NCBI GenBank assembly: GCA_030144725.1
Contig: JASKMD010000031.1
Coordinates: forward strand, 2,513,775 to 2,577,774
DNA: 64,000 nucleotides
Origin: Haematococcus lacustris
Taxonomy: Eukaryota; Chlorophyta; Chlorophyceae; Chlamydomonadales; Haematococcaceae
Reading direction: 5' to 3'
Part shown: one piece after another, positions 7,111-60,771 of the stretch
Numbering within the stretch: position 1 is the stretch's first letter
Layout: every line of letters starts with the position of its first letter
Made by a program: the position numbers and the translations under genes
The notes under the pieces: model-generated
Database searches by the model: none
Seen by the model: only the letters and a program-made list of their open reading frames with translations
What the model was told of the DNA's origin: nothing

Positions 7111-10100
7111 GATTCGGATGTTTCTGATGGTTCGTCTCGAGGCCCTGAGCAGGGAGCGAGCATGCAGCGTGTCATGTAACTGGTGATGCCTTGGCTGCTG
7201 CCTTTGTGTGACTGGGGGCAGCATGGCACTAAACAGGGAAGAATGGTTGCAGGGTTGTGGGCACCATGGTGGGTGATTAGGGTGGGCTACGTCAGGGTAG
7301 GTGACAACGGAGCATGGGTCAGGTTTTACTAGTCTCACTGCTCGCACTTTCCAACAGCATCCTACTGCCCGCACCGCCACACATAGGCTGCAGAGCAACA
7401 TGGAGGAGGGTGCGCCTCCATCATGAGGTGTAGCCTAGCCTAGTCTAGCCTAGCCTAGTCTAGCCTAGCCTAGCGACTGTGTGGAGAGGCAGCATCAGTC
7501 GTGTAGCTCCTATGGGGCAAGAAAGGTGAGGCAGGCACAGGGGTCATAGAAGCAGGTTATCAGCCCATGTGCCAAGGTGGGCGCATTGAAGAGCAGGCTG
7601 TGACGCTAAAGCAACGTAATACATCATATTGCTGGTGTCGTCACTGTGAAATCCAACCTGCACAAGCATGGCTGCAGCATGCATCTGGCTCTAGCAACAG
7701 GCCACTGATGCTCAAATCACTGTAGGCCAGGCTGCCAGGTTAGTCGCTTGACAGAAGTCTTATATTGTGAGCCAGGGTATGGGACAGGGAGCAAACATGG
7801 ACGGGAAACATGAACAGGGAGTGCAACACTGGCTAGAGTTTACCTGGTGGTGGGTGCGGGGTAGGAGGCGATGGGGATTCTGGCTCCTGGAGTGGATGAG
7901 GGGGAGAATAAAGTGCAGGAGGTGATGGAATGGGAGAGGGCGCAGGAATGGAGGGAGAATGGGGGTGAGGAGAGGGGGAGGAAGGGAGAAGAGAGGGGGA
8001 GGGAAAGGTAGGCTCAAGAGGTGGAGTAGGGGAAGGTTCGGGTGGCTCTGGTGGAGGAGGTGGGGGGCGGGGTGGGGGTGGTTCAGGAGGTGGAGGGGAG
8101 GGTTCGGGTGGGGGTGGTACTGGTGAAGGGGGTGGAGGGCGGGGTGGGGGTGGTTCAGGAGGTGGAGGGGAGGGTTCGGGTGGGGGTGGTACTGGTGGAG
8201 GGGGTGGAGGGCGGGGTGGGGGTGGTTCAGGAGGTGGAGGGGAGGGTTCGGGTGGGGGTGGTACTGGTGAAGGGGGTGGAGGGCGGGGTGGGGGTGGTTC
8301 AGGAGGTGGAGGGGAGGGTTCGGGTGGGGGTGGTACTGGTGAAGGGGGTGGAGGGCGGGGTGGGGGTGGTTCAGGAGGTGGAGGGGAGGGTTCGGGTGGG
8401 GGTGGTACTGGTGGAGGGGGTGGAGGGCGGGGTGGGGGTGGTTCAGGAGGTGGAGGGGAGGGTTCGGGTGGGGGTGGTACTGGTGAAGGGGGTGGAGGGC
8501 GGGGTGGGGGTGGTTCAGGAGGTGGAGGGGAGGGTTCGGGTGGGGGTGGTACTGGTGAAGGGGGTGGAGGGCGGGGTGGGGGTGGTTCAGGAGGTGGAGG
8601 GGAGGGTTCGGGTGGGGGTGGTACTGGTGAAGGGGGTGGAGGGCGGGGTGGGGGTGGTTCAGGAGGTGGAGGGGAGGGTTCGGGTGGGGGTGGTACTGGT
8701 GAAGGGGGTGGAGGGCGGGGTGGGGGTGGTTCAGGAGGTGGAGGGGAGGGTTCGGGTGGGGGTGGTACTGGTGAAGGGGGTGGAGGGCGGGGTGGGGGTG
8801 GTTCAGGAGGTGGAGGGGAGGGTTCGGGTGGAGGTGGTACTGGTGAAGGGGGTGGAGGGCGGGGTGGGGGTGGTTCAGGAGGTGGAGGGGAGGGTTCGGG
8901 TGGGGGTGGTACTGGTGAAGGGGGTGGAGGGCGGGGTGGGGGTGGTTCAGGAGGTGGAGGGGAGGGTTCGGGTGGGGGTGGTACTGGTGAAGGGGGTGGA
9001 GGGCGGGGTGGGGGTGGTTCAGGAGGTGGAGGGGAGGGTTCGGGTGGAGGTGGTACTGGTGAAGGGGGTGGAGGGCGGGGTGGGGGTGGTTCAGGAGGTG
9101 GAGGGGAGGGTTCGGGTGGGGGTGGTACTGGTGAAGGGGGTGGAGGGCGGGGTGGGGGTGGTTCAGGAGGTGGAGGGGAGGGTTCGGGTGGGGGTGGTAC
9201 TGGTGAAGGGGGTGGAGGGCGGGGTGGGGGTGGTTCAGGAGGTGGAGGGGAGGGTTCGGGTGGAGGTGGTACTGGTGAAGGGGGTGGAGGGCGGGGTGGG
9301 GGTGGTCCAGGAGGTGGAGGGGAGGGTTCGGGTGGGGGTGGTACTGGTGAAGGGGGTGGAGGGCGGGGTGGGGGTGGTTCAGGAGGTGGAGGGGAGGGTT
9401 CGGGTGGAGGTGGTACTGGTGAAGGGGGTGGAGGGCGGGGTGGGGGTGGTTCAGGAGGTGGAGGGGAGGGTTCGGGTGGAGGTGGTACTGGTGAAGGGGG
9501 TGGAGGGCGGGGTGGGGGTGGTTCAGGAGGTGGAGGGGAGGGTTCGGGTGGGTGTGGTACTGGTGAAGGGGGTGGAGGGCGAGGTGGGGCTGACATGGTA
9601 GGGTTAGGAGGAGAGGGAGATGGTGGAGAAAAGGGTGGATCTGGGGGTGGGGGGTTGTTATAAGGTTGGTCAGGTGGTGGGGTGTAAAATGATGGAGGAT
9701 CAGGAGCAAATGGTGTAGGAGATGAAGGATTGCTTGATGTAACTGCAAGACATAAAGGCGGGTCGTCAGAAGTGTGAACGGTGAAGCACCACTGACCTGT
9801 GCTGGTGAATCAAGGGCTTCACCTTGATATGTACCCCGGCAAGGACCATCAAAGTCAGGGCTCTCAATCAGCTCACCAACGGCTGACTTCAAGCAATGCT
9901 GCAGTCAGGAGGGAGGCGCCCTGGTCAGCCTCATATAGGGAGGGACGCAAGGAAGATGCAGGCAATGCAGATGCAACCAAACAGCAGGGAGGTGGAGGAG
10001 TAAGGCAAGGTAGAGGGTATCTTCACGGATGTGAATGGTTTCATGATTAATCTCATTGTGAACCATGCCACAGGTTAAACCTACCGATGAGAACATTGCT

Positions 10101-17137: not shown

Positions 17138-17637
17138 NNNNNNNNNNNNNNNNNNNNNNNNNNNNNNNNNNNNNNNNNNNNNNNNNNNNNNNNNNNNNNN
17201 NNNNNNNNNNNNNNNNNNNNNNNNNNNNNNNNNNNNNNNNNNNNNNNNNNNNNNNNNNNNNNNNNNNNNNNNNNNNNNNNNNNNNNNNNNNNNNNNNNNN
17301 NNNNNNNNNNNNNNNNNNNNNNNNNNNNNNNNNNNNNNNNNNNNNNNNNNNNNNNNNNNNNNNNNNNNNNNNNNNNNNNNNNNNNNNNNNNNNNNNNNNN
17401 NNNNNNNNNNNNNNNNNNNNNNNNNNNNNNNNNNNNNNNNNNNNNNNNNNNNNNNNNNNNNNNNNNNNNNNNNNNNNNNNNNNNNNNNNNNNNNNNNNNN
17501 NNNNNNNNNNNNNNNNNNNNNNNNNNNNNNNNNNNNNNNNNNNNNNNNNNNNNNNNNNNNNNNNNNNNNNNNNNNNNNNNNNNNNNNNNNNNNNNNNNNN
17601 NNNNNNNNNNNNNNNNNNNNNNNNNNNNNNNNNNNNN
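17138..17637. other. Assembly gap of 500 N
   Basis: A run of exactly 500 Ns, probably a placeholder of unknown true size. It removes the 3' part of EndoG and the 5' part of the next gene. Any reading frame drawn across it is artificial. Confidence 1.
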
Positions 17638-27602: not shown

Positions 27603-28698
27603 GGTGGTGGTGGCGGGTGGGACGGCAGGAGCATCAGCGGTAGCCTTCATGGCCTGCGGTGAGTGATGTATTCATGATGGCGGAGCTTTGAGCTCCTGCT
27701 GCTCCTGCTGCTGCTGGCGCTGCCCCTGCTGCCATCACTGTGTTGTGTCAGAGCCTACACAACCTGCATGGGTTAGGGTTAGGGTTAGGGTCAGCCCTGA
27801 CCCTGACCCTGACCCTGACCCTGACCCTAACCCTGACCCTGACCCTGACCCTGACCCTGACCCTGACCCTGACCCTGACCCTGACCCTGACCCTGACCTG
27901 CATGGTGGGGCCTGAAGCCGCCCTCTTGCACAGCTGGGCCCACCAGGTGAGCATGGCTCAGGGGAAGCTTCATCCAAACACCACGCACACCGGCGTTGAC
28001 CCAGGTCTGTAAAATCATGCCACATCAGTCCACGACAGGATTATCATCATCATCATCATCATCACCACCAGCACGCACTAGCACCAGCGTGGCTGCCAGA
28101 CAACGATTTGCACGGGCTCCAATGATGTGGGAATGCCATGCCTAGGTGCCCTGCAGGCTTCTAGTTTTGTGCCCATGCATGCATGGCATTTTCTCAACTG
28201 CATTGTTTCCCGCAAATCCCGCTGCGCAATGCAGGCGCTACCCAGTGACAAACTATGCTGTGGGATGTGGGAAACATGTCAAAGTCGATGCAGCCGGTGC
28301 TGCCGCATTGGAGCATGGACTGCTTATGACTTTGTTTGCTGGTGGAGCTCTCCTTTGTTGCTCACACCAATGAAAAGCACATGCATAGGGAAGCAGCCTA
28401 TGTGTTTAGCAACTTGAATCAATGTGCCACCTTCAGCTTAAGGCATGGCAAAGGGACAATCCTGAGCCTGCGGCAGCCCTTAACCGTGTGTCACCTTTAA
28501 TGCTCCCTCTAACTTGCATCTGAACTCCACTGGGTCTTCAGGCAGTTGCAGTTCGTCAACTATGACACCCCCATAACTGTCTGTCTTGTAAGCTAAGCAC
28601 TCCTGATGCATGTTTAAGGCCGCTGTGCTGCACAAGGCACGGTTGCGCAAGCCAAGTAGTTTAGTGCGCGTGGCTAGCAGCCGAGGTTTGAATAGCAT
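24011..28698 (-). CDS. Nudix hydrolase of the plant NUDT2/6/7-type (ADP-ribose/NADH pyrophosphatase-like), complete
   Basis: Seven exons on the minus strand: 28495-28698, 27898-28006, 27416-27489, 26026-26142, 25585-25617, 24871-25017, 24011-24136. All junctions are GT-AG and in phase, giving 810 bp (269 residues), close to the 280-residue family norm. The N-terminus (MLFKPRLLATRTKLLGLRNR...) is basic and looks like an organelle transit peptide. Next come the pre-Nudix domain (YGGVIVDE, GVWMKLPLSHAHLV, GFRPHHA, HIMLVRWL, LPLGATHQ) and the Nudix core (VGVGAFVLNEQQQVLMV, KGKAVWKLPTG). The Nudix box is spread over three exons: GLCNE / AEDVPEAAERE / VLEETGI, a perfect GX5EX7REVXEEXGI. Then RQAHGFALGHSDLFVVV and LESAQWMSLEDYAQQPF follow. 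The family hydrolyses ADP-ribose or NADH to AMP plus a phosphorylated partner, with Mg held by the box glutamates. The last few residues before the stop (RGWVG) could be intronic if another exon exists. Confidence 0.9.
24224..24285. repeat. CCCCG pentamer run, about 12 copies
   Basis: In the last intron of the Nudix gene. Same unit as the giant array at 48634-49843. Confidence 0.95.
25050..25215. repeat. CAG/CGG-type trinucleotide tract
   Basis: cagcagcag with interspersed cggcag units in the intron 25018-25584 of the Nudix gene, starting about 30 bp upstream of the acceptor of exon 24871-25017 on the minus strand. Confidence 0.9.
25940..26002. repeat. CCCCTG hexamer tract
   Basis: About ten cccctg units in the Nudix intron 25618-26025. 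Confidence 0.9.
27560..27600. repeat. CAG trinucleotide tract
   Basis: About twelve cag units in the Nudix intron 27490-27897. Confidence 0.9.
27772..27898. repeat. GGTTAG / CCCTGA hexamer array with inverted halves
   Basis: Three gggtta units are followed by about eighteen ccctga units, one mutated to ccctaa. The first part can pair with the second. On the minus strand the array reads GTCAGG repeats and starts exactly at the donor of Nudix exon 27898-28006. Confidence 0.95.
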
Positions 28699-28960: not shown

Positions 28961-31957
28961 ATGTTGTTTTCTATGGCTAAGAAAAAAAGACGAACCGTGC
29001 CTAGGCCAGTGCCGGAGGACCCGGACAGTGACATTGAGGACCGCGACGAGGCACTACAGCCGGACCTCACCGAAGCGGAGCGAAATAGTAAGGTTTCCGG
29101 AGAGGCCCGCGCTGCCCGCGATAGGGACAACACATACCACGGCAGGAAGTGTAAGCTAGCCCACCTCATCGACCACTTGCCGCAAGAACTTTGGGATGCC
29201 TTCCTGGACGACGCGGTGCAGCCACGAGTGGAGGCCATCAGCGAGCGGGCGGTGCTCGCCAGCCTGCTGTTTGACTTACTCGTGCGCGGCTTGTTTACCA
29301 TTCACGTAGCCGACCCGCTCGGCCTGCACGACCAGCCCGTGTACACAGACATCCCAGTCTCCCAGGCAGCCATCCCGGACCTGAGCTGCAGGAACCTGTT
29401 CCTACAGCTGGTCCGCGGCCTGCCCGGAAATGGCGCAAACACTCGGCCCAACGCGGCAGTGGCTGCCGTGCTGGCCGCGCACCCCGACCTCCGCGCCCGC
29501 CTCGCAGCAATCCCTCGTCACCCCTCTGACACCAACATGGTGGACCACGTCGGGAAGCAGCTGGAGACAGCTTTCAGCAACATGCTAACTCTCCTCTTCG
29601 CTGGCAGGCTCAAGAAGTCTGTGTCCCTGGCTGGGGCAAAGGTCCTGCTGGGCACTGAGGAGCACCAGCGCAGGTTTGGGTTTAGGGGGCTGGTTGGTGG
29701 GCACCTGCCAGCCTGGTCAAAGCGGCAGTGCACCTATGTGCGCCGCATGGTGTGCGGGCTGGACGTCAGCTGGCTGGTGGGGGAGGGTGGGGTGGTGGTG
29801 ACTGAAGCCATGCAGGCTGAGGTGGCTTTGCAGCGGGGCCTGCTGGGGCTTGAGGAGGGGGAGCTGGTGAATGATGACTGGGTGGAGTATCCAGCAAACC
29901 GGGGCCGGCTGCTGCGCCATGCGGTGCACACCACCAGAGAGATGGAGGCAGCCATGGCAGCCTGGCAGCTGGACATGGTGCCCTGGCAGCAGGCTGAGCT
30001 CACCAACCCAGGGCTGCTGCCCAGGCCCCCCCGCCCCCCCACACCCTATACCATCACCCCCACCAGCAAGTGCCGTGCTCGGCATGTCTTCATCGACACA
30101 CGGGGCCTATACGGCATGATGCGTGACGCCGGCATGCTGGGGGTGCTGACAGAGGAGGGGGTCACCTCCTTGGCGAAGTTCAGGAACGGTGCCCTACCTG
30201 ACCCAGCGAGGCCGGGCCACTACATTGAAGGGCCCAAAGACAGCCATGTGAGTGATCCTTGCAGTCAGGTGCCAGCCAGTCCTTGGGTGCTCCGTCAGCT
30301 GCCATGTGTGCTGTCAACTGCCGTGTGAGCCTTCAGGCAGCTGCCTACACAGGCTGATGAGGTGCCTTGGTTGTGTTTATGGTGGCCGCAGGTGGCCAAC
30401 CGGTGGGACGCATTGCTGCCCGACCCTCGCCGCCAAAAGCTCGCCAGCCCCAAGCACAGCTTCGCGCAGATCGTGCACACCGACGGAGTCGCCATCAGCG
30501 TGATGTTCCTGCGGCCCAAGCCTGCAGCTCCACCCGCAGAGCTGCCGCGGATGGGCAGGCACATGGGCGCAGTCAACCCGCTGGCCCACCTCGACGCGGA
30601 GTGGCTTGGCGTGGACCCTGGCAAAACCAATATGGCCACTGTAGCGCACGAGGAGCGCAGCGCTGCCGGCACAGTGGTGTCCGTGCGGCACTGGAAGCTT
30701 ACAGCCGGGCAGTACTACCGCGACAGCGGCATCACACGGCAAGCCCAGGCAACCAAGAAGTGGCTGGCCGAGGTGAAGACGAAGGTAAGGCCTATTAGTA
30801 GTAGGCCTATAAGCTAGGGAGTAGCCAATCAAAGTCAGCTCATGCTCTTACACCTGGCCAACTGTTGTTGTTGTTGCTGCTACTGCTAAACCTGACCTTA
30901 CACATGTGTGCCTTCTGTGTTGTACCATGTGTGGCTGCAGCTCATCAAGCAGGCCAAGCAGCGGTGGCCGGACCGTGCCCTGGCACTGGCCTATGGGGCT
31001 GCTGGCTTCAGTGGCAGCGGCAGCATTGGCTGCAGGGGTGTCCCGGTCAGCCAGATGCTGAAGGAGGCGCTGAGGCAGTTCCCAGCAGGGCGAGTGGTGC
31101 TGGTAGATGAGTTCCGCACCAGCCGGGTCAGCTCAGCCTACAGCCACCCCAGTGAGGCCCTTCCTGGGCAGCCGCCTGAGTCCTTCAGGTGAGAGGGACA
31201 GTGGGGGAGGGTCAGGGTAGTGCTGGGAGGTGGTGGAGTTAAGGTGGCTGGGTAGGGTCAAGATTGGGAAGGTAAGGAAAAATCTTACAAATGTGCATTG
31301 CCCCATGTGTCCATGCAGGTGGCTGCGGCCAGTGTACAGCGAGGCGAAGCGTTCCCAAGTCAGGGGCTTGATGAGCTCAACAAGCTACAACATCAGGTAA
31401 GCAATGACCAGACAATGCACATGTACATGGCTGCAACATATCCCACATGAGGTGACACATGACATGACACATGACTTGACCTCATGCATGGCCCGTAGAG
31501 CGCGACTGGTTAGTTTAACATCCTGATGTTTTGGGTTTAACCACATCTTTAACCAATCTTTAACATACCCGTTTTGCTACCCTGGGACTGCTTCTCACTG
31601 GCTACTTCTGCCGGCATAGTGTCGCTGGGTGCATTGCCGTGTCGCGACCAGAACGACAGCAAAAAGGGACTCGTATCGCGACCAAACGGTCAACTTTAAC
31701 AATCGGTTTAACACTAACCTTTAACCAGTCCGGTCGCGCTCTAATGGCCCGCACCCATGTGCAGGTTCTATGACCGGGACGTGTCAGCCGCGCTGAACAT
31801 CCGCCGCTGTGCAGTCGGCCCAGGCCCACGCCCCACTGAGCTGTGCTACTGGGATGGCCGCCCAGCCATGCCAAAGCCAGGCCGGCCAGGCCAGGAGTGG
31901 GTGTACTTGCGTGACAAGGCCCTGTTGCGTAAGTGGCGGCGCAAGTGGCGACGATAG
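28961..31957 (+). CDS. Fanzor: eukaryotic TnpB-like RuvC nuclease, five exons, apparently intact
   Basis: Exons 28961-30247, 30392-30784, 30941-31188, 31319-31396 and 31765-31957 join in phase to 2199 bp (732 residues). A start at 28973 is also possible and would begin MAKKKRRTVP, a nuclear-localisation-like basic run. The first 500 residues form a long unassigned N-terminal region. RuvC-I is EWLGVDPGKTN (Asp about 504). RuvC-II is VVLVDEFRTS (Glu about 617), preceded by AYGAAGFSGSGS as in Fanzor/TnpB. RuvC-III is FYDRDVSAALNIR (Asp about 674). This D/E/D set and spacing is the TnpB/Fanzor nuclease signature; known members are RNA-guided DNA nucleases using a guide transcribed at the element's end. 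Unusually, the zinc-ribbon CxxC pairs expected between RuvC-II and RuvC-III are absent (TSRVSSAYSHPS instead). The C-terminus is very basic (LLRKWRRKWRR). Function as an RNA-guided nuclease here is inference. Confidence 0.87.
31496..31743. mobile_element. 248-bp hAT-like MITE in Fanzor intron 4
   Basis: Terminal inverted repeats of 11 bp (tagagcgcgac at 31496-31506, gtcgcgctcta at 31733-31743) are flanked by a perfect 8-bp duplication ATGGCCCG at 31488-31495 and 31744-31751. An 8-bp target duplication and TAGAG-type ends fit the hAT superfamily. The body is full of gtttaac/ttaaac words and encodes nothing. It ends 21 bp before the acceptor of Fanzor exon 5 and so lengthens this intron. Confidence 0.85.
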
Positions 31958-32334: not shown

Positions 32335-33526
32335 TTCGGCTAGTCCAAATCACAGCAGAGTACTAGTGATAGTAATAGTCCAAGTGAACGCTTGATACCG
32401 ACGTCAGGGGCCGAGTGAAAAGTTGAGGGGCTGAAGCGCTGAGATAGCACACAGTGATACGATAGCGCACAGTGCTGGTACCAGGGATGGGATTCGCAGT
32501 CATCAGGGGTGCGACCAATGATGTTGTTGTGACAGAGGCATTCACCTAGCGCCGGCCATAGCAAGCCTCCTCCGTAACCTGTCCCACTACCACAAAGCCA
32601 ACTGCTGTGTGCTTTTCTGAGCTATACAACTCAGAAAACAAGTTCACAGCTATGTAACTTCTGAAAATGGGCTGCATTGCTGACATGCTGGACATGCTTG
32701 AGTTTACGAATCAACAAGCTTATTACCAACAACAGCTGTTACCACGAACTTATTACAAGTTTGCCATTTTCAATCGTGCACCCGGCATAGCGTCCATGGC
32801 CTACTCAGCCTACACTACCCAATGGTGAAATCAGTATGCCCACGCATGCAGGAACGTGTCAATTCTGGCCCTTTTCCCTTGGCAAGTGTGGGGCTTGCAC
32901 ATCCGATGGCGGGGGTTAGCTCCAGGGCATCTCCATGCACACCAAGGGGCTACCCGCCACACACAAGGCAATGATTGCAGGTGCACGCACCCTTTAGATA
33001 CATAGCTGGCGTGACAGCAGAGGTTTACACACCATAGCAGGTGCATCCTTCCGCAAGCTGCCACTGTATGTGTGTGTGTGTGCCAGGCTGTCAGTCCCAC
33101 TGGCGCACCAGCGTAGCCCTACCTGCAGCCAGCCTTGCCACCATCTAGACATAGCAGCCCATACTGCAGCCAGCCTGCAGTGTTCCCAGCTGCATGGGCA
33201 GCCCAGCAGCAAGCGGTGGGGGACAGGGGAGGGAGGGCAGGGTGGAGGTGGCGGCACCCAGTTCCCAATGCACAGCTGGTGTGCTGAGAATTGCTCTGCT
33301 GCCAGGCCTGCTGCATGATCTGCAACCACATGCAAGCTCGACATGCAAGCTGACATTGCCAGCATGGGTTGGCCCTTACTGGCATTGCGGATGGCACTGT
33401 TGCTGCTGCTCCTGTCCTCCCTTGGCGATGCTGTGTGGGGCTGGGCGTCCGGGTTCAAGTAGCCAGAACCCTACAACTGGCATCTGACGAGCAGGCCTTG
33501 CACGCATGCGCTCATGCATGCACTCT

Positions 33527-36500
33527 TTAGTTGCGAAGGACGTTGCGTATGACCTGAGGTTTGGCCAGCTCCACATGGCCAGGGGTGCGCCAGAACAGCT
33601 TGCTTCGCGTGATGAACCTGGATCAGCAAAGCAGGCAACACAAGAGCCTGACCTGCCAGCCAAACTGCCTCATGTGTTGGGTGCCAGCATGCCCAGAGCA
33701 AGTCATTGTGCCGGCCCTGGCATGCTGCTAGTCCAGATAACGCACGCATGGCTGCCCTGCCTTACTCTACCAGCCACCAGGGACAGCCGCAACACACCAC
33801 AGACAGGGCATCAGCTGCTGCACGGATCAACAGCGGTGCAGACCATACCATGAACTGCCCAGACACCTCCACCACCAGCCTGCCATGAACTCCATGTGCC
33901 TGCTGCCCTGAAAAGCTCCATGCACTGCTCCACAGCTGGGTGCAGGCACCCACCCGTGGAAGTCTTTGCACTCATCCAACACGCTCTTAGGTATCCAGAC
34001 AGCCCTGCTCATGTCTTGCAAGGAAGCACGGTAGTTGGGCTGGGTCTGCGCAACGCCATGCAGGGCCAGGGCAGGGTGCTCATGAACACACAGACACACG
34101 CAAGCACTCGACCTGATGTGTGACAGCAATGATGATTGCCATTACTCAATGACGGCGCAGTGCCACACATTGCTGCTGCTGCTGCTGCTGCCACTACTGC
34201 TGCTAATGCCATGCAGGCTAGATCAGGAGTGGGGCGTGCATGCACTAAAATAATCTCATGCATGGTGCTGACACCGACGTGATTTAATGCCACAGAGGCT
34301 TAAAGTTGTGTGATGAAGGCAATGCTGCATGGCAATTCAACACGCCGGCCATGCAGTGCCAGCCACCCAACTTCCAGATTTCAAGCAGTGTGCTAGCGTA
34401 GCATCAGCTCCCTGGCCAGCAGGCTGGAGGCTGTCACGACATGCAGCTGCATCACAGGCGCTCAGCCTCACATAACCCAACATGGTGCAGGCAGCAGCTG
34501 GGTGAGTGGCGCATGAGGGGCAGGCAGGTCAGCAGGGTGGCCCCCAGGCCCTGCACACCTGCAGGAAGCTGATCAACTTGACTTCGAAGCTGCGGATCCA
34601 GCGCTCTATGCTGCTGTCCCCTCCACACTTGTAATCATTGAGCTCCTGCTCGCTGAACAGCAGTCCATCCTCACTCTCATCACCCTCCTGCCCACCATCC
34701 TTGTTGACATCAGTTGCCAAGACGAGCTGGTGGTGGTGTAGCAGGTGCTCGATGTTCAGCTGCACCACTGGCTGTTCACCATAGTGCGTAAAGACACTGA
34801 AGACGCCTGGAGGGTTGCCATCAAACAGCTTGGACAGCTGGATGGGAGGACGCAAGGATTTGTACTCACCCCACAGCCTGGGGTCGGCTTTATACATTGC
34901 ACCACCCAACGCGTTGGTGAACGACGCGTTGCGCCTGCATTGACTAGCGCCTTTAACAAACAGGGGCGCAGCGTCTATCAGCACGTATGCCGCCACCTGA
35001 CGCAGTCGCGCGGGGACGTCGTCGTTGCCAAACACCGCCGCGAGCACTTCATAACGCTCGTCGGCGGACATCGCTTTTAGAGTGCGCAGGTGGTCTTCGT
35101 AGCTGCGTTTGCTGTGTTGCTGGTAGCCGCCGCCTCTCTGCTGATGGCCTGGTCGGTAGCCAAGGTTGCGGCCTTCGGATTCATGACGTAACCCTCTGTA
35201 GCCGTCGCGCCCTCGCTGCTGGTCCCAAGGGACTTCACTGCCTTCCTCCCAATCTCCACCATCGCGCCCCTGGTCATCCTCCCGCGACAGCCCGTGGTTG
35301 TGACTCTGTTGCTTTTCACTGCCACCTCTCCAATTGCTTGCATAGCCTGGGCCGTGGGTTCGGTTGCCAGAGCTGGTAGACCAAGGAGTCGAGCCCCTGA
35401 CCTCGTTGCTCAACTCTGCCTGCCTCTGTGAGGACCTTAGTTGAGAGCCGGGTGAGCCGCACCTGAAGGGCCGCTCAAGCTGCACAGACGGCAGCGGCAG
35501 CAGCTTGACTGAGGCCAGGTGGACTACTGTGGGCCCAGCGCTGGCTGCTGCCCGCACATGCGAAGCTTCAGCCTGCACAGGTACACTCGCCTCACTCAAT
35601 GCGCGCGCCCCTGCTGCCCGCGCATGAGCCAACATCAGCTCCTGGGCTGAGCTGAATTGCTCAAGCTGCCCCACTGTGGGCAGGGCAGGCTGGTGTGACA
35701 GCCGCCTCCGGGCTGTGTAGGTCTCAGCGCTGACCGTGGCAGTTGTGCCAGGCCACAAGCTGTCAACCACTGCTTGCTGCGACACAGCTGCCGCCAACTC
35801 ATCCTTGGCTGCCAAGGGGGGGCTGACCAGCATCTGGCGTGGTCCTTGGCCAGGAGGCTTTGGCTCTATGGCCTGCTGCCCAGCAGCAAGACGAGGGGGC
35901 GGGGAGTCCTGGTCAGCAGCAGGCGCCTGACCTGGGTGCGTGGTCAGGACCCGTAGCGGCCCCCCAGCTGTGGAGTGTGCAGTGGCCACTGCTGCCATCA
36001 TGGCCTTCAAATGCCCTTGTTTGCCCGGCAGCTCAGGCGGCTGGCTGCCCGGGCCATGCTGCACCTGCTGTGTGGGCAGGGCGGCTGCAGGGAGCTGAGT
36101 CAGCGCCGCTCTCTGCCCTCCTGAGCCTCCAAGCAAGGGTCCCACACGCGCCCTTTTCTGCAGGGCCAGCTCATCGCTGCCGGCTGCGGCCTCACCTGCT
36201 CGCTTCACACCAGCGTCAGCGGCGGAGGGCAGTGGCCGCAGGGCGCCTGGCACAGCCACCGGGGGATCCCTGGTTGCGGGTGATGGGGGAGGCACGCCCT
36301 GGGCTGCTGCTGCTGCTGCTTTGGCCGCAGAGGCCTTCTTCAGCGCGGCTTGCACTTTCTCAGCCAGCTGCACCAGCTCAGGGTCGGGTTCGTCGTCATC
36401 ATCGCCCATGTCAGCATCAGCAGAGCCAGGGCAGGTGCTCTGTGCCACCGTGGATGCAGGCCAGACGCATCCAGAACCATCAGGGGGCAGACTATGGGTG

Positions 36501-39091
36501 GGCGGGCGTGCATGGTGCCCGTTTCCTTGGCTGAGCAGCAGGCTGGAGCTGGAGGGCAGCAGGGCAGGAGCCAGGCGCTGAGGCCCAGCATGGCTAGGGG
36601 CTGCAGGCAGGCAGGCGGTGGCCCTTGCCCCTGATGCTGGGGCTGTGTCCACCTGTGCCTCAAGCTTGGGCTGCAGCCCAGGCAACGGGGTGTCACCCAA
36701 CCGTGCGCACCAGTGAAGCACCGCAGCCTCCCTCAGAGGCCAAGCGTGGTCTGGCAGCTGCTGCACCGCCTCCTCCACATCCCGACCCCACGGCTCAGCC
36801 AGCTGCTGCTGCACTGCCTGCCAGACCCTCTCCCCCTGCCTGCCTGCCTCGCCCCTGCCCTCGCCCCTCACCTCCCTGCCATCCTCAGCGCCTGCCATGC
36901 CAACACGCAGCCAGGCGTGCAGGTGGCGACGCAGCTGGTGGGTGGCCTCCAGCACCTGGGTGCGGCGCAGCGCTTGCACCAAGCCACGCTCCACAGCCCA
37001 GCTGAACTCACAGCACAGGTCGCGCACAGTGTCAGCAGGCAGCTGCTCCAGGGGCATGGCCAGCACCAGGCCAACAGGCCACCAGCCGCAGCCTTCCAGC
37101 TCCAACGCAAACTCAGCGCCAACAGCCAGGCCAGCCTGCACCACTGACTGTTCCAAGCCAGCCTTGCCTGCTGCTGCTGCCCCTGCTAGGGTGGCTGGGG
37201 TGGCGGCTGCAGGTTGACAAGGTGGTGGGTGCAGCTGGGGCTGGGTGAGGGCAGGAGGGTAAGGGGACGCCCCTGGCCTGCTGTGGGCCTGCTGCAGGGC
37301 CAGGGGGTCACTGGACAGGCGAAGCACTTGGCGCAGGCGCACCAAGCCGTCCATGTACACCAGCACCAGGCTGCCTGACATCACAGCCGCACCAGGCAGG
37401 CAGGGAAAGTTGTTGGACAGGGCACCAGGGCCCTCCACAGCCTCTGTCCTTGGCCCTGCCCCTGGCCCCTGGCCGCTGCCCGCTGTCTCCACTGTTGCAG
37501 ACCTCTCACTGCTGCTGGTGCTGCTGCCATGTTGCAGGAGGGCCGCCTGCAGCTGCCACAGGAGGAGGGTCAGGGGCTGTGGGACGTACAACAGGGGCAG
37601 CAGCTCTGGCACCATGGCCACCTGCCCTGCCAACTGCCCTGCCACCTGCCCTGAATGCTGCTCTGGCCCACAGAATGAAGTCAGGAAGTCCAGGACCCCA
37701 GCATCTGCAGAGGGCAGCCGGGCAGGTTGAGCTGCAGGCGTGGCAGGGGGCATGACAGGGGCGCAGGCTGCCTGGGCAGAGGGGAGGCTGGTGGGCAGGG
37801 CAGGTGCTGCGGCACTCATGCCACTGGCTGCGCTTGCCATTGCTGGTGGTGCCACTGCACCTTGGCTGCCTGCTGCTGCGCAGGCAACGCTACCAAGGGA
37901 GGTGCAGGGGCCCAGCTGGCTGGCAGGGGAGGCAGTGGGGCCGCCCACCCTTTGCTTTGCACTGCTTGCCTCTGTCCTTGCACCAGCAGCGGCTGCCATC
38001 TCACCCCTCCCTGCGTCAATGACATGTGTGAGATCAGCTAGTACGCTAGGATTTGAGCACGCTCGATCCTCCAACCCCTCCACCATAGGGGGCTCTTCAC
38101 TGCTGCCCCGCCCCGGCTGACCCTGCTGACCTTGTGGAGAGCGCGCCATCAGGCCTGGCAGCCCACCTTCTCCCCTTGCTGGCCACTCGCCCTGGTGGCT
38201 GGCACCGGGCTGCAGCCCGGCAGTGCCATGCAGGGCGCCAGGGCCTGGCAGCGAGGTGTGAACAGGGGGACAAGCGAGAGGAGGGTCACCACCTGGCGCC
38301 TGGAGAGGCGGTGGGCTGGGCGGCAGGGAGGGCAGTGGCCCAGCGCCTGCATTGACAAGGGGTGCTGACTCAGGCTGTAGAGGGTCGCCCTGGTGCCCTG
38401 CCTGGGCAGGTGGTGGAGGGGTTGAAGCATTTGCTTCTGATGAGGGTTGAAGGGCGGGGTGTGAGTGTGGGGCGAGGTCAGCGGGAAGTGAAGCATACCC
38501 ACATCCCTTCTCTTGCTCCTCCTCTTCTTCCTGCTTGACTGCCACAGCAGCCTGAAGCTGGAGGGGGCAATTGGGCAGATCAGGAGGGCTGGAGGGCTCA
38601 ATGGGTCTCGGAGGCAACATGCGGCCTGCCTCAGGTGGTGGTGGGGAGGCTGCTGGGGAGGGGAGCTGGGGGGAGGCTGAGGCAATGGGGGTCCAGGCTA
38701 CGGGAAGCAGCTGGAGCTCCTCTGATTGCTCTTCTGGTGACCCCTCATGCACCTCCTCCTTCACCTCCTGATGCCGCTGACACGCCTGCTGCTCATCCAA
38801 CTCATCCTGCTCCTGCTGCTCCTGCTGGCCCTGTTGCTGTTGCGCGGCTAGGTGTGTGTGGGGTGACTGGTCATGCACATTGGTAGAGCTAGGGGGAGTC
38901 ATAGGGCAGTCCCCCAGCTGCTGCTCAGTGGGCGGCAGGTGCTGGGTGTCTGATGTGGCTCCCTCATGGGCTGCAGGGTTACTGCTCTGCTGCTGCCCGG
39001 CAGCCTGCTGCTTGTTAGAGTCATCCCCGTCCTCCTGCCGGGCCCTCTTATGGCGGGGTGCCCCTGGCTGCTCATCTTCACTGTCTAGCTG
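33527..39091 (-). CDS. Unknown large nuclear-type protein, left copy (5' exons damaged)
   Basis: Exons 34559-39091, 33954-34045 and 33527-33617 on the minus strand join in phase to 1572 codons including the stop. They match the plus-strand gene at 53589-59919 exon for exon. The large exon starts QLDSEDEQPG with a basic PRHKRARQE stretch (possible NLS). It continues with long P/Q/A/S-rich disorder, a more ordered block (GCGWWPVGLVLAM, TVRDLCCEFSWAVERGL), an RG/Q-rich stretch, and an ordered end (AMSADERYEVLAAVFGNDDV ... GVFSVFTHYGEQPVVQLNIEHLL). The final exon is FITRSKLFWRTPGHVELA...NVLRN. The exon before it (donor at 39368, exon edge 39369) has an in-frame TAG when aligned to the other copy, and the first exon is absent. 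It may be a pseudogene or may use another start. No family was recognised. Confidence 0.6.
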
Positions 39092-39159
39092 CTGCAAGGA
39101 GGCAGGCAACAGGCAGCAACAGCATCAGCAGTAGGAGCAGCAGCAACAGGTCACACACA

Positions 39160-39171
39160 CACACACACACC
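39160..39171. repeat. CA dinucleotide run
   Basis: Short (ca)n in the first visible intron of the left copy; the mirrored (gt)n is at about 54420-54436 in the right copy. Confidence 0.8.
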
Positions 39172-39470
39172 TCCCCTCTCAGGCCTCTGGACACACATGG
39201 ACCATCCAAATGGAACACAAGTCCAAGCAAACTCAGTATGGGGAGAGTGCTCAGAGTACAACATGTGTGTGGTCCACAGGGGGGCAGCTGGTAATGGTTC
39301 AGTCACCTGACTGCGTGCCCGCAGCCTGCCCGGGGCAGGAGACCTACCCTGACTCTAGCCTCGCTTACCTCAGCGGCTCCAGGGCTGCTGCCGTGCCCGC
39401 ACTGCATGGCTCGGGCGCTGACCTGAGCAGGTCGGGCTAGCGGTGCGCTGCGGCCGCCACTGAGGTTGAG

Positions 39471-40603
39471 CTATTGCAAGAACGGGAAGCAAGTCAACGC
39501 GGGGTGGCCCTGGCGTTGGTGCTGGCCTGAACCGCACTCTAGCCCCAGCTAGCCACAGCTCCACGTGCAGCGCTGTCCCGTGTAGCGCCCATCGAGAATG
39601 CAGCAGCGATGATAGGGAAGGGAACTGATGGGGCTATTGGCTGATGTTTGGCTGTGTGAGATTGCTTGTTCAAAGTCTCGCAGAACAGTGTCGTAAGCAC
39701 TGTGCTGATTTTTTGTGCTGTGCTTTTGTGGGACCCAGGCAAATTACAACAGAGCAACAACACATTACAACAGAGCAAAACTAAACTACATGTAAATACA
39801 GGCGTATCTCTGTAACAATAAAATGTTTTTCTGCGTATCACTTACAAACCATCCCAGCATGTAAGACTTGCACCGCTGGGCTCAGCGCGTCGCTGTTAGT
39901 TCCCTGACGGATGTCCACCCCCGTAGCCCGCCAAGCATCTGCCTAGAGAACTGTCCAACCGACGATGTGCGCAACAATAGACCCCGTGCACGTCGCAAAG
40001 CTCTAAATCGCTTGGACCGACCATGCAAGTAAGAACATGTGCAATTGCTCCATTGCGTAGCTGCAGAAATGAGCGCATGAGGCTCACGAGCCGTGGACCC
40101 GACTGCGACCATGCAGGGTTGCTGCAAACCCGGCCCCCAGTCCAGCCAGGGCGAATTCTGGGTTGAAACTACACATTTAGCCCAACTTTAGCATAAGGTA
40201 AGCGATGATTAAGGCTGCATCACAGTGCATTCAGTGAGTGCACATTGGCAGGGAATCATATCACATCACACACTACGAGGTGTCACGTAGCACATGTGTG
40301 GTGTTTAGGCACCAAGCTTGTGTGGGGTGTTGACAATGCTCATAGCTACCTCCTGCTGTGCTTCACTTAAAGGTAAAAATGCAGGCCATTACAGCATTCA
40401 ACCACAGACTTTCAGATACAGCTTCAGACTGAAATGCCATGGATGATGCCTTTGCCCAACAACACACCACATGCAACACTTGCTATGAATGCTTTACATG
40501 TGCATGCCTACGTTCCCACATCCTCATGAAGGGCGGTCCGTGCACCTCGAGGGCGTGTTGTTGCTACAGGTCACCGTCGAGCAATGTTCATAGAGACTGT
40601 GCA
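39471..40603. other. No supported gene
   Basis: Just outside the inner edge of the left arm. Patchy similarity to exon 53945-54220 persists to about 39570 (tgcacgtgga, tggctagctg). Beyond that I see nothing recognisable. Confidence 0.45.
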
Positions 40604-44090: not shown

Positions 44091-46464
44091 TTTTTGAGAT
44101 CGATTTGCTGCTTGTTGCTGCGGCGCATCCGTCTCGTTTTTGCGCCCTAGCTTTGACGTATACTCATAGCTCCCACGGGGAGCTATTGCAGTGTAATATA
44201 TCTGCCCTGCGCAGGTTGGGAAGCTCTTGAAATTACAGTGCGTAGAAACCTTATTTCTAAGCGGGAAATGCATCAAACGCCGTGCTGACCTCCTGTAGAG
44301 ATGCAAGCGGTGTGCCCCGAGAATCTCTTACACTTTTGGTGGCGTTATCTTTAGGATTAGCACCCATAGATACACCACACATACATACCATGCTCATGTC
44401 TAAATTACTCCATCTCGCGCTTACCAGGCTGCGAAAGTGTAAGCGATTGTTCTGAATCCTCCAAGCTACTACCAACGTTCATCAGCGGTGCAAATGATGC
44501 AGACTGGCGGCCATAATTAGCGATGGGCCGACGCACTAAGCGTAGTAAGAATGCATCGGCGAAGATGGCAGCTCAGGTTGCAGCTGGCATTGCCCCGTGG
44601 ACGCGCATGGCCGGCTTCATCGCAAACCGGTTGAAGGTACACACAGTAAAGTGCCGAATTTGAATAGGCCTGTTTTGGCCGTTCTCCCGTTTTTGCCCTC
44701 CAATACGCACGCTTCCTTGCATACACGGTCGCTGGAGGTAACGAGGATGCTGTGAGTCGGTTAGAAGCGAATCATCGCGCACCGTCGGCTGAGATGTGGC
44801 TGCCGCCGGTTATGCCCGTTTGAACCCTACCGGCTGTTAAGGTTCCGGGTGCACTCGCGCGACAAGTTACCCGTGCAAGCGCAGCCCTTCTTGACACTTT
44901 GGTGGGTACTTAATGTAGCTCAATTGGTCCGCTCCGGTCTACTGCAGCCGCTTGGCCGCGGACTCGCGTCGAAAATACTCTTTCTAAGCGCTCCAGGCAT
45001 TTTATCGGCCTCATGTGCCCAGGGCCCACCGCACACCCCCACCCCCCATGGCCAAACCGACCACTGGTGCTTCTCGGCAGTCCAGCTTGGCTCTAGACAG
45101 CGCAGGCGAGATGGGCAGAAGGCTCGTGGCAGCTGCTAATGCTGACTTTAAGGTCAGGAGGGTCCAGCCACAGCCATCTATGGCAGCTGTGGCCTGGGAA
45201 CATAGCGTTTCATATGCCACCTTCTACAGAGTCATGAAGAGGGATGGGGTGATTGCAAAACATGGGTGCCCAACAGCTTTTTGAGATCGATTTGCTGCTT
45301 GTTGCTGCGGCGCATCCGTCTCGTTTTTGCGCCCTAGCTTTGACGTATACTCATAGCTCCCACGGGGAGCTATTGCAGTGTAATATATCTGCCCTGCGCA
45401 GGTTGGGAAGCTCTTGAAATTACAGTGCGTAGAAACCTTATTTCTAAGCGGGAAATGCATCAAACGCCGTGCTGACCTCCTGTAGAGATGCAAGCGGTGT
45501 GCCCCGAGAATCTCTTACACTTTTGGTGGCGTTATCTTTAGGATTAGCACCCATAGATACACCACACATACATACCATGCTCATGTCTAAATTACTCCAT
45601 CTCGCGCTTACCAGGCTGCGAAAGTGTAAGCGATTGTTCTGAATCCTCCAAGCTACTACCAACGTTCATCAGCGGTGCAAATGATGCAGACTGGCGGCCA
45701 TAATTAGCGATGGGCCGACGCACTAAGCGTAGTAAGAATGCATCGGCGAAGATGGCAGCTCAGGTTGCAGCTGGCATTGCCCCGTGGACGCGCATGGCCG
45801 GCTTCATCGCAAACCGGTTGAAGGTACACACAGTAAAGTGCCGAATTTGAATAGGCCTGTTTTGGCCGTTCTCCCGTTTTTGCCCTCCAATACGCACGCT
45901 TCCTTGCATACACGGTCGCTGGAGGTAACGAGGATGCTGTGAGTCGGTTAGAAGCGAATCATCGCGCACCGTCGGCTGAGATGTGGCTGCCGCCGGTTAT
46001 GCCCGTTTGAACCCTACCGGCTGTTAAGGTTCCGGGTGCACTCGCGCGACAAGTTACCCGTGCAAGCGCAGCCCTTCTTGACACTTTGGTGGGTACTTAA
46101 TGTAGCTCAATTGGTCCGCTCCGGTCTACTGCAGCCGCTTGGCCGCGGACTCGCGTCGAAAATACTCTTTCTAAGCGCTCCAGGCATTTTATCGGCCTCA
46201 TGTGCCCAGGGCCCACCGCACACCCCCACCCCCCATGGCCAAACCGACCACTGGTGCTTCTCGGCAGTCCAGCTTGGCTCTAGACAGCGCAGGCGAGATG
46301 GGCAGAAGGCTCGTGGCAGCTGCTAATGCTGACTTTAAGGTCAGGAGGGTCCAGCCACAGCCATCTATGGCAGCTGTGGCCTGGGAACATAGCGTTTCAT
46401 ATGCCACCTTCTACAGAGTCATGAAGAGGGATGGGGTGATTGCAAAACATGGGTGCCCAACAGC
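44091..46464. repeat. 1187-bp tandem duplication (two copies)
   Basis: 44091-45277 and 45278-46464 are essentially identical; the repeat starts at tttttgagatcgatttgctg. The junction has short T-run microhomology. The first copy's HTH-like reading frame is cut at the junction and the second copy continues past it. Confidence 0.95.
45048..45284 (+). pseudogene. HTH transposase-like fragment, copy 1 (truncated by the duplication)
   Basis: Begins MAKPTTGASRQSSLALDSAG and contains the helix-turn-helix-like SVSYATFYRVMKRDGV. It then ends KHGCPTAF-stop because the tandem junction replaces the rest. Confidence 0.5.
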
Positions 46465-46549
46465 TTTGTCAGCTGTGGAAGAGAAGCAGTTGCATGTCCA
46501 TGTGCAAGACTTTAAGTGCCTATGGACTGCCACCCGACAACGCTTTTAA
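46235..46549 (+). CDS. HTH transposase-like fragment, copy 2
   Basis: Same start as copy 1, but continues KHGCPTALSAVEEKQLHVHV and stops after 104 residues. A helix-turn-helix followed by G(R/C)PTALS...EE is typical of psq/pogo-type DNA transposase N-termini. The catalytic DDE part was not found, so this is a remnant or a first exon. Confidence 0.45.
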   Translation: MAKPTTGASRQSSLALDSAGEMGRRLVAAANADFKVRRVQPQPSMAAVAWEHSVSYATFYRVMKRDGVIAKHGCPTALSAVEEKQLHVHVQDFKCLWTATRQRF

Positions 46550-48097: not shown

Positions 48098-48633
48098 AAG
48101 CAAGGGGAGCTGAGGCCGTAATAGAATGATAGCAGTAAGCAAATGATTACGTAAAGACCAAGGCTGTAGGCCTGTACACAACGCAATGCAGTAATGTAAC
48201 CTGCCGTTGTGCCTGTAAACTGTGGGCGCTTAGCTCAAGGGAATGCAACTCTGGTGTAGCGGGAAATTATCGTGATCAATATAGTGGTGTTTTCTGATCT
48301 CTGGCACAAACTAGGACAATGTCTTAGGTTGTCTCAGTCTGTCAGGGAGTTCAACCCAGCCTCATAACACCACCACCAGTCAGCCATGCCGCAGCCTTGG
48401 CCAAGGCAAACACCCCAGTAGCTGACTTGGTGCGGCCAGCCTCCCGAGCTGCTGCCCCAGTTTTGCCAGCAACATCGGCAGCTCACCTGGTGCGGCCAGC
48501 CACCCCAGCTGCTGCCCAAGCCTGGCCAACCACCCCAACAGCTACCCCGGCTAATAACTTGCCTACTACCCACCCCTAGCTACTGGCACTGCTATCGTCG
48601 CTGCTGTTGTTGTCACCGCTGCTGTTGCTAACG

Positions 48634-49843
48634 CCCCGCCCCGCCCCGCCCCGCCCCGCCCCGCCCCGCCCCGCCCCGCCCCGCCCCGCCCCGCCCCGCC
48701 CCGCCCCGCCCCGCCCCGCCCCGCCCCGCCCCGCCCCGCCCCGCCCCGCCCCGCCCCGCCCCGCCCCGCCCCGCCCCGCCCCGCCCCGCCCCGCCCCGCC
48801 CCGCCCCGCCCCCGCCCCGCCCCGCCCCGCCCCGCCCCGCCCCGCCCCGCCCCGCCCCGCCCCGCCCCGCCCCGCCCCGCCCCGCCCCGCCCCGCCCCGC
48901 CCCGCCCCGCCCCGCCCCGCCCCGCCCCGCCCCGCCCCGCCCCGCCCCGCCCCGCCCCGCCCCGCCCCGCCCCGCCCCGCCCCGCCCCGCCCCCGCCCCG
49001 CCCCGCCCCGCCCCGCCCCGCCCCGCCCCGCCCCGCCCCGCCCCGCCCCGCCCCGCCCCGCCCCGCCCCGCCCCGCCCCGCCCCGCCCCGCCCCGCCCCG
49101 CCCCGCCCCGCCCCGCCCCGCCCCGCCCCGCCCCGCCCCGCCCCGCCCCGCCCCGCCCCGCCCCGCCCCGCCCCGCCCCGCCCCGCCCCGCCCCGCCCCG
49201 CCCCGCCCCGCCCCGCCCCGCCCCGCCCCGCCCCGCCCCGCCCCGCCCCGCCCCGCCCCGCCCCGCCCCGCCCCGCCCCGCCCCGCCCCGCCCCGCCCCG
49301 CCCCGCCCCGCCCCGCCCCGCCCCGCCCCGCCCCGCCCCGCCCCGCCCCGCCCCGCCCCGCCCCGCCCCGCCCCGCCCCGCCCCGCCCCGCCCCGCCCCG
49401 CCCCGCCCCGCCCCGCCCCGCCCCGCCCCGCCCCGCCCCGCCCCGCCCCGCCCCGCCCCGCCCCGCCCCGCCCCGCCCCGCCCCGCCCCGCCCCGCCCCG
49501 CCCCGCCCCGCCCCGCCCCGCCCCGCCCCGCCCCGCCCCGCCCCGCCCCGCCCCGCCCCGCCCCGCCCCGCCCCGCCCCGCCCCGCCCCGCCCCGCCCCG
49601 CCCCGCCCCGCCCCGCCCCGCCCCGCCCCGCCCCGCCCCGCCCCGCCCCGCCCCGCCCCGCCCCGCCCCGCCCCGCCCCGCCCCGCCCCGCCCCGCCCCG
49701 CCCCGCCCCGCCCCGCCCCGCCCCGCCCCGCCCCGCCCCGCCCCGCCCCGCCCCGCCCCGCCCCGCCCCGCCCCGCCCCGCCCCGCCCCGCCCCGCCCCG
49801 CCCCGCCCCGCCCCGCCCCGCCCCGCCCCGCCCCGCCCCGCCC
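48634..49843. repeat. Giant CCCCG pentanucleotide array, about 242 copies
   Basis: 1210 bp of pure ccccg, broken only by one extra C near 48811 and another near 48991. The minus strand reads GGGGC. Open frames on both strands (RPAPP / GRGGA) are repeat artefacts. The flanks (48098-48633) contain no supported gene. Confidence 0.98.
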
Positions 49844-53588: not shown

Positions 53589-56500
53589 ATGCAGCTGAGA
53601 TTCGACTATCTCGCAGAATCTGCCTTTGGGTCGGATGTTGCTATCCTCACCTCTCCCGAGCAAAGGAGGCTTGCTGTCCAGCAGTGCACCCTGAATTTCC
53701 CAAACTCCACAGGAGTAGGCATCGACTGGCAGGTGGCGGCAGAGGCACTCGCAGAAGAGCTCAAGCAGTCAGGCTGTTCGGACAATGTGCTAGAGATGGC
53801 CATGGCGAGGGTGAGTTTCACGATTGGTTTGGAATCATGATTGGCTGAACACTTAGCTGCCAAGCTAAGCTTGGTGGCCCTGGCGGATGACACCGACGGC
53901 CAGTGCTCTGTGGCCCACCACCCTGCCCTCCACCCCTGCTGCAGCTTCAACAAACTCAAGCCCGCGTGGCGCTGCACGTGGAGAAGTGGCTAGCTGTGGC
54001 CGAGGTGTGCTTGACATCGAGCAACTTTGTAGCAGCAGCGGATCCAGGCCAGCACACAGGGCCGCGTGCGCCCTCAGAGTTGCCTCAGTCCTCGCCTTCT
54101 ACCAGCTCAGCAGAGCTAAGCTTCAGTGTCGGCGGCCGCAACCCACTGCCAGCCCGGCCTTCTCTGGTCAGCGCCCAAGCCATGCAGTGCGGGCACGGCA
54201 GCAGCCCTGGAGCCGCTGAGGTAAGCGAGGCTGGAGTCAGGGTGGGTCTCCTGCCCCGGGCAGGCTGCGGGCACGCAGTCAGGTGACTGAACCATTACCA
54301 GCTGCCCCCCTGTGGACCACACACATGTTGTACTCTGAGCACTCTCCCCATACTGAGTTTGCTTGGACTTGTGTTCCATTTGGATGGTCCATGTGTGTCC
54401 AGAGGCCTGAGAGGGGAGGTGTGTGTGTGTGTGTGTGACCTGTTGCTGCTGCTCCTACTGCTGATGCTGTTGCTGCCTGTTGCCTGCCTCCTTGCAGCAG
54501 CTAGACACTGAAGATGAGCAGCCAGGGGCACCCCGTCATAAGAGGGCCCGGCAGGAAGACTGGGATGACTCTAACAAGCAGCAGGCTGCCGGGCAGCAGC
54601 AGAGCAGTAACCCTGCAGCCCATGAGGGAGCCACATCAGACACCCAGCACCTGCCGCCCACTGAGCAGCAGCTGGGGAGCTGCCCCAGAACTCCCCCCTG
54701 CTCTTCCAGCGTGCACGACCAGTCACCACACACACGCCTAGCCGTGCAACAGCAACAGGGCCAGCAGGAGCAGCAGGAGCAGGATGAGTTGGATGAGCAG
54801 CAGGCGTGTCAGCGGCATCAGGAGGTGAAGGAGGAGGTGCATGAGGGGTCACCAGAGGAGCAATCAGAGGAGCTCCAGCTGCTTCCCGCAGCCTGGACCC
54901 CCATTGCCTCAGCCTCCCCCCAGCTCCCCTCCCCAGCAGCCTCCCCACCACCACCTGAGGCAGGCCGCATGTTGCCTCCGGGACCCATTGAGCCCTCCAG
55001 CCCTCCTGATCTGCCCGACTGCCCCCTCCAGCTTCAGGCTGCTGTGGCAGTCAAGCAGGAAGAAGAGGAGGAGCAAGAGAAGGGATGTGGGTATGCTTCA
55101 CTTCCCGCTGACCTCGCCCCACACTCACACCCCGCCCTTCAACCCTCATCAGAAGCAAATGCTTCAACCGCTCCACCACCTGCCCAGGCAGGGCACCAGG
55201 GCGACCCTCTACAGCCTGAGTCAGCACCCCTTGTCAATGCAGGCGCTGGGCCACTGCCCTCCCTGCCGCCCAGCCCACCGCCTCTCCAGGCGCCAGGTGG
55301 TGACCCTCCTCTCGCTTGTCCCCCTGTTCACACCTCGCTGCCAGGCCCTGGCGCCCTGCATGGCACTGCCGGGCTGCAGCCCTGTGCCAGCCACCAGGGC
55401 GAGTGGCCAGCAAGGGGAGAAGGTGGGCTGCCAGGCCTGATGGCGCGCTCTCCACAAGGTCAGCAGGGTCAGTCGGGGCGGGGCAGCAGTGAAGAGCCCC
55501 CTATGGTGGAGGGGTTGGAGGATCGAGCGTGCTCAAATCCTAGCGTACTAGCTGATCTCACACATGTCATTGACGCAGGGAGGGGTGAGATGGCAGCCGC
55601 TGCTGGTGCAAGGACAGAGGCAAGCAGTGCAAAGCAAAGGGTGGGCGGCCCCACTGCCTCCCCTGCCAGCCAGCTGGGCCCCTGCACCTCCCTTGGTAGC
55701 GTTGCCTGCGCAGCAGCAGGCAGCCAAGGTGCAGCGGCACCGCCAGCAATGGCAAGCGCAGCCAGTGGCATGAGTGCCGCAGCACCCGCCCTGCCCACCA
55801 GCCTCCCCTCTGCCCAGGCAGCCTGCGCCCCTGTCATGCCCCCTGCCACGCCTGCAGCTCAACCTGCCCGGCTGCCCTCTGCAGATGCTGGGGTCCTGGA
55901 CTTCCTGACTTCATTCTGTGGGCCAGAGCAGCAGTCAGGGCAGGTGGCAGGGCAGGTGGCCATGGTGCCAGAGCTGCTGCCCCTGTTGTACGTCCCACAG
56001 CCCCTGACCCTCCTCCTGTGGCAGCTGCAGGCGGCCCTCCTGCAACATGGCAGCAGCACCAGCAGCAGTGGGAGGTCTGAAACAGTGGAGACAGCGGGCA
56101 GCGGCCAGGGGCCAGGGGCAGGGCCAAGGACAAAGGCTGTGGAGGGCCCTGGTGCCCTGTCCAACAACCCTCCCTGCCTGCCTGGTGGGGCTGTGATGTC
56201 AGGCAGCCTGGTGCTGGTGCGCATGGACGGCTTGGTGCGCCTGCGCCAAGTGCTTCGCCTGTCCAGTGACCCCCTGGCCCTGCAGCAGGCCCACAGCAGG
56301 CCAGGGGCGTCCCCTTACCCTCCTGCCCTCACCCAGCCCCAGCTGCACCCACCACCTTGCCAACCTGCAGCCGCCACCCCAGCCACCCTAGCAGGGGCAG
56401 CAGCAGCAGGCAAGGCTGGCTTGGAACAGTCAGTGGTGCAGGCTGGCCTGGCTGTTGGCGCTGAGTTTGCGTTGGAGCTGGAAGGCTGCGGCTGGTGGCC

Positions 56501-59500: not shown

Positions 59501-59919
59501 TGCCTGCACCCAGCTGTGGAGCAGTGCATGGAGCTTTTCAGGGCAGCAGGCACATGGAGTTCATGGCAGGCTGGTGGTGGAGGTGTCTGGGCAGTTCATG
59601 GTATGGTCTGCACCGCTGTTGATCCGTGCAGCAGCTGATGCCCTGTCTGTGGTGTGTTGCGGCTGTCCCTGGCTGGTAGAGTAAGGCAGGGCAGCCATGC
59701 GTGCGTTATCTGGACTAGCAGCATGCCAGGGCCGGCACAATGACTTGCTCTGGGCCAGCTGACACCCAACACATGGGGCAGTTTAGCTGGCAGGCCAGGC
59801 TCTTGTGTCGCCTGCTTTGCTGATCCAGGTTTATCACGCGAAGCAAGCTGTTCTGGCGCACCCCTGGCCATGTGGAGCTGGCCAAACCTCAGGTCATTCG
59901 CAACGTCCTTCGCAACTAA
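53589..59919 (+). CDS. Unknown large nuclear-type protein, right (complete) copy
   Basis: Exons 53589-53810, 53945-54220, 54498-59018, 59404-59495 and 59829-59919 join in phase to 5202 bp (1733 residues). A start at 53496 in the same frame is possible. The first two exons encode an ordered region (FDYLAESAFGSDVAILTSPE, IDWQVAAEALAEELKQSG, VALHVEKWLAVAEVCL). The rest parallels the left copy: acidic/basic start with PRHKRARQE, disorder rich in P, Q, A and S, an ordered middle (WWPVGLVLAMPLEQLPADTV), an RG/Q-rich part, and an ordered end (VAAYLLIDAAPLFVKSASQS, GVFSVFTQYGEQPVV). The last exon is GFITRSKLFWRTPGHVELA. Conservation of all splice sites and frames in two diverged copies argues for a real protein. 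The NLS-like start suggests the nucleus. No family was recognised. Confidence 0.75.
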
Positions 59920-60735: not shown

Positions 60736-60771
60736 TGGTAAGCATTGCTATGTGTGCATTAGGGGTTTTAC

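Follow-up and report, generated by a model that had tools for sequence, protein, structure and literature searches.

A Fanzor1-type gene of Haematococcus lacustris, probably a decaying copy from a large family without a zinc ribbon

Background

Fanzor1 proteins have been described from Spizellomyces punctatus, Parasitella parasitica and Guillardia theta and, among green algae, from Chlamydomonas reinhardtii and Volvox carteri, whose elements are treated in a section of PMC3627910 and were compared here by that description; the same section places the Chlamydomonas families CRe-1, 2 and 3 among the Helitrons. Fanzor has also been reported in Auxenochlorella, Chlamydomonas and Chloropicon, in a passage of work on another alga. 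Here we describe a Fanzor1-type gene at 28961..31957 of a 64,000-nucleotide stretch of the nuclear genome of Haematococcus lacustris (GCA_030144725.1, contig JASKMD010000031.1, positions 2,513,775 to 2,577,774; hereafter the window). Our analysis suggests that this gene is probably a dead, decaying copy of a large transposon-like nuclear family, the full-length members of which would work without a zinc ribbon.

Several sequence marks have been given for these proteins. According to a passage of PMC10711439, Fanzors carry DPG at RuvC-I, and the TnpB proteins of IS200/IS605 and IS607 typically have D-hydrophobic-G and place the glutamate some 50 residues ahead of the zinc finger. The four-cysteine (C4) motif of the zinc ribbon was called "strictly conserved" in Fanzors in a section of Bao and Jurka 2013 (PMC3627910), which also gives the spacing D-X(125,275)-[TS][TS], and is ascribed in part of PMC10711439 to "many" TnpBs and Fanzors, not to all.

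Results

Gene structure

The gene consists of the following exons:

28961..30247 (+), exon 1: residues 1-429, the N-terminal half, with a putative WED/REC part recognised through its match to Fanzor1 structures, the domain names being given by analogy
30392..30784 (+), exon 2: residues 430-560, with the TDGV motif and RuvC-I
30941..31188 (+), exon 3: residues 561-642 and two bases of 643
31319..31396 (+), exon 4: contains, where the second CxxC would stand, SSTS (S662..S665, 31374-31385)
31765..31957 (+), exon 5: residues 669 (last base) to 732 and the stop codon

An earlier note on this DNA had claimed that the five exons join in phase to 732 residues without stop or frameshift, and this was confirmed. 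All four introns (144, 156, 130 and 368 nt) are of the GT..AG type, and the joined product is stop-free and letter-for-letter the H. lacustris protein QJQ45_021283, which is itself a gene prediction, so that the identity is a match to annotation and not RNA evidence. The GC content at third codon positions is 0.75-0.82 across the five exons, against a GC content of 0.47-0.59 in the introns, and the alignment of annotated relatives continues across the splice junctions. For these three reasons the five exons are, as judged from the sequence, well above chance. In having four introns the gene differs from SpuFz1, which a passage of PMC10432273 describes as a single open reading frame.

A large family in H. 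lacustris

Database searches matched related groups of 306, 205 and 384 proteins (the 306 and the 384 representing two related groups) in overlapping lists, the counts of 306 and 205 each being drawn from about 8000 scored candidates. All matches listed, 120 per list, are from H. lacustris; as those listed for the sets of 306 and 205 carry the locus-tag prefixes QJQ45, V8C86DRAFT and HaLaN, more than one annotation contains the family. Chimeric gene models, in which unrelated domains have been fused on, are frequent among the entries, and protein counts are therefore not gene counts. At least four types of RuvC-I occur (GVDPGKTN, GMGLDPGAIQA, GVGIDPGVTQA and AVGVDPGVTQA), and all three RuvC motifs were found in order, by the pattern used, in 114 of the 270 proteins fetched. 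The suggestion of the earlier note that the gene might be domesticated finds no support, since the gene belongs to a large family.

Fold and RuvC motifs

A structure search with the predicted model of the full-length relative P0008 showed a Fanzor1 fold, matching PDB 8gkh, 9cez, 9cf1 and 9cer and thus the Fanzor1 proteins of S. punctatus, P. parasitica and G. theta. In the model of the 732-residue protein, which has a mean predicted local distance difference test score (pLDDT) of 42.9, the match to Fanzor1 lies in the N-terminal half. Together with the annotation of the gene in H. lacustris, this comparison bears out the reading of the locus as a Fanzor in an algal nuclear genome. The three catalytic motifs lie where the earlier note had placed them, with D504, E617 and D674 all kept:

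30608..30631 (+), RuvC-I GVDPGKTN with D504, showing the DPG fingerprint of Fanzors (from a passage of PMC10711439)
31103..31123 (+), RuvC-II sequence motif VDEFRTS with the shifted glutamate E617
31769..31801 (+), RuvC-III sequence motif YDRDVSAALNI with D674

The gene thus resembles the three Fanzor1 proteins above in DPG (D504-P-G), in the alternative glutamate, which precedes the start of the zinc finger by six residues (S624 at the first cysteine position), and in RD at RuvC-III (R673-D674), and it differs in the first two marks from the typical TnpB. The TDGV motif before RuvC-I is shared with GtFz1, in a weak profile match (E 0.96). In a subfamily including P0069, P0066 and P0088, HEFRTS replaces DEFRTS at RuvC-II and the glutamate is retained (39 of 130 matches).

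A deletion inside RuvC

The gene was described in the earlier note as intact, a claim that does not stand, because part of RuvC has been lost through an in-frame deletion of which 75 of 89 compared proteins are free:

30776..30784 (+), site of the in-frame deletion: K558-T559-K560, ahead of the splice donor of exon 2, at the place of a helical block of about 63 residues in relatives

The 732-residue protein reads WLAEVK-T-K, then the splice junction, then LIKQAKQ; the close copy P0010 reads WLAQVK, then 63 residues ending in K, then LIKQAKQ. Sixty-three residues have thus become two, in frame and with the splice donor retained, a net loss of 61 residues between RuvC-I and RuvC-II by which the copy also falls short of the Fanzor1 proteins of S. 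punctatus, P. parasitica and G. theta. Among the 120 family matches listed, 89 proteins have RuvC-I and RuvC-II in order; the block is complete in 75 of these, partial in 10 and absent in 4, including the gene under study, the other three being gene predictions only in which annotation errors are possible. When sought throughout the window, the block gave chance matches only.

In alignment A4, made of 24 rows from our gene's own family (family A) and 12 from sister families, whose proteins are 25-32% identical to P0008, 45 positions are near-invariant, being kept by 90% or more of the rows, and nine of these belong to the block. In the predicted structure of P0008 the block accounts for the greater share of the helical region that separates strands 3 and 4; the RuvC helices of SpuFz1 are extended, touching REC and shielding the RNA/DNA duplex, according to a figure legend of PMC10432273. 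Through the loss of the block the D-[TS][TS] spacing drops to 115, while it lies within 125-275 in 130 of 137 measured relatives (5 below, 2 above). For the narrower pattern DPG-x(120-160)-E, from the methods section of PMC10711439, the value is 110 in the 732-residue protein and 171 in P0008, both outside the range. The nine conserved positions, the role of the helices in SpuFz1 and the shortened spacing indicate that nuclease activity has likely been lost in this copy.

Absence of the zinc ribbon

31130..31141 (+), S624..Y627: motif position at the place of the first zinc-ribbon CxxC

With SSTS at the second place, the four cysteine positions are S, Y, S and S (SxxY, SxxS) in the 732-residue protein. 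The C4 pattern, sought between RuvC-II and RuvC-III, was found in none of the 270 family proteins fetched. A looser RuvC-II pattern matched 251 times in these proteins; cysteine stands at position 1 or 2 in only two of the matches and never at both positions together, and family A frequently retains the cysteine of position 3 (CxxS in 73 of 106 matches). Because the four-cysteine pattern is absent across all 270 proteins, the loss of the ribbon is, at the level of sequence, common to the family proteins examined and not specific to the deleted copy. The family differs in this from SpuFz1 and ISDra2 TnpB, which share the ribbon according to the legend in PMC10432273, and from the Fanzor1 elements of C. 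reinhardtii and V. carteri, for which the cited section of PMC3627910 describes C4 as strictly conserved. A search of the open-licence literature on Fanzor in Haematococcus or on Fanzor without zinc finger found, among the titles listed, no account of the present family, and the H. lacustris genome paper (PMC7617258) mentions neither Fanzor nor TnpB.

Surroundings of the gene

31496..31743 (strand not assigned), insertion of 248 bp in intron 4: perfect 11-bp terminal inverted repeats (TIRs) TAGAGCGCGAC and an 8-bp target-site duplication (TSD) ATGGCCCG on both sides

This insertion, which we take to be hAT-like, leaves an intron of 112 nt when it is removed. About 1 kb upstream of the gene, telomere-like interstitial TTAGGG units and a CCCTGA array occupy 27773-27898, and about 760 bp downstream begins an inverted duplication of some 6.7 kb (32718-39472 and 54114-60743, 92-96% identical), the arms of which contain open frames of 1531 and 1527 codons; the 1531-codon frame gave no Pfam match at E<=0.01. 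The window further contains tandem copies at 1-2655 and 4461-7115 (98.5%) with open frames for proline-rich, presumably pherophorin-like, proteins, a 72-bp minisatellite at 8040-9589 and a (CGCCC)n array at 48632-49843 (242 copies, 99% match, several frames open). An Rfam scan of the window at the gathering score gave no match.

Discussion

By analogy with known Fanzors, the full-length members of the family would bind an omega RNA transcribed from the 3' end region of their own element and, with it, locate a matching DNA site, which their RuvC site would cut; such cutting would aid the persistence or spread of the element. In doing so they would rely on a TNB domain lacking the zinc ribbon. 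The 732-residue copy, with a net 61 residues gone from its RuvC helices, would most likely cut no DNA and is probably a decaying relic with a frame open by chance.

Several observations weigh against this account. Model confidence is low to middling (mean pLDDT 57.9 for P0008, 42.9 for the 732-residue protein), and in global superposition Foldseek fits P0008 only loosely to Fanzor1 (template modelling score by query 0.31-0.40, root-mean-square deviation 14-20). Since the two AlphaFold models were built on different alignments (A4 with, A3 without sister families), the poor RuvC part of the 732-residue model does not cleanly demonstrate misfolding. A Pfam search of the 732-residue protein gave no match, and its best PDB profile match, GtFz1, has an E value of only 0.96. 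The protein lacks C4, and its spacing of 115 lies under the published range. No convincing TIR or TSD was found around the gene, and neither a transposase nor a guide RNA was found. The rows of A4 were hand-selected as long, which favours block-bearing copies. Finally, an open frame and three retained catalytic acids are not guaranteed in a long-dead copy, and the in-frame deletion could be tolerated.

These last points would fit a compact Fanzor that can do without the deleted helices and remains active as an RNA-guided nuclease, and D504, E617 and D674, the open frame and the GT..AG introns are what keeps the earlier suggestion of activity alive. It is weakened by the in-frame deletion inside RuvC: among the 36 rows of A4, of which 12 come from sister families 25-32% identical to P0008, nine positions of the block are conserved in 90% or more, and the spacing is below the published minimum of 125, so that we regard activity as improbable. 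About equally improbable is that the deletion, or the gene model, reflects an assembly or haplotype artefact hiding a locus of full length. Transposable elements make up 50.8% of the H. lacustris genome (a table of PMC10400597), and the window itself contains an assembly gap of exactly 500 N (17138-17637) and two head-to-tail copies of 1190 bp, 100% identical (44091-46467), possibly an assembly duplicate; yet the deletion preserves both the reading frame and a splice donor, the block has chance matches only anywhere in the 64 kb, and the assembly, most likely that of Bian 2023 (PMC10400597), is reported as PacBio HiFi at 82.9x.

A host role as a nuclease-dead RNA-guided DNA-binding or RNA-binding protein would agree with the Fanzor1-like N-terminal half of the model and with a frame that is open despite the damage to RuvC. 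Nuclease-dead TnpB-derived repressors exist in bacteria; a repressor would however be free to lose the three catalytic acids, which are retained here, and nothing points to conservation of this particular locus, the 90% cluster that contains P0002 having only one member, which makes such a role more doubtful still. We give a similarly slight chance to the idea that H. lacustris houses a large, working zinc-ribbon-less Fanzor1 radiation in which short copies with in-frame RuvC deletions, like the present one, persist as guide-RNA-binding competitors or as targeted DNA-binding regulators of the full-length family. A dead, decaying copy remains the probable reading.

Conclusion

Neither an open frame nor a full set of catalytic acids guarantees that a Fanzor copy works, and comparison with relatives, rather than the presence of motifs, should choose copies for laboratory work. 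Search patterns that demand CxxC...CxxC, as in the methods section of PMC10711439, would overlook families without a zinc ribbon. With a Fanzor1 radiation in one alga that lacks the ribbon and is otherwise true to the fingerprint, the need of the ribbon for omega-RNA binding and cleavage becomes testable.
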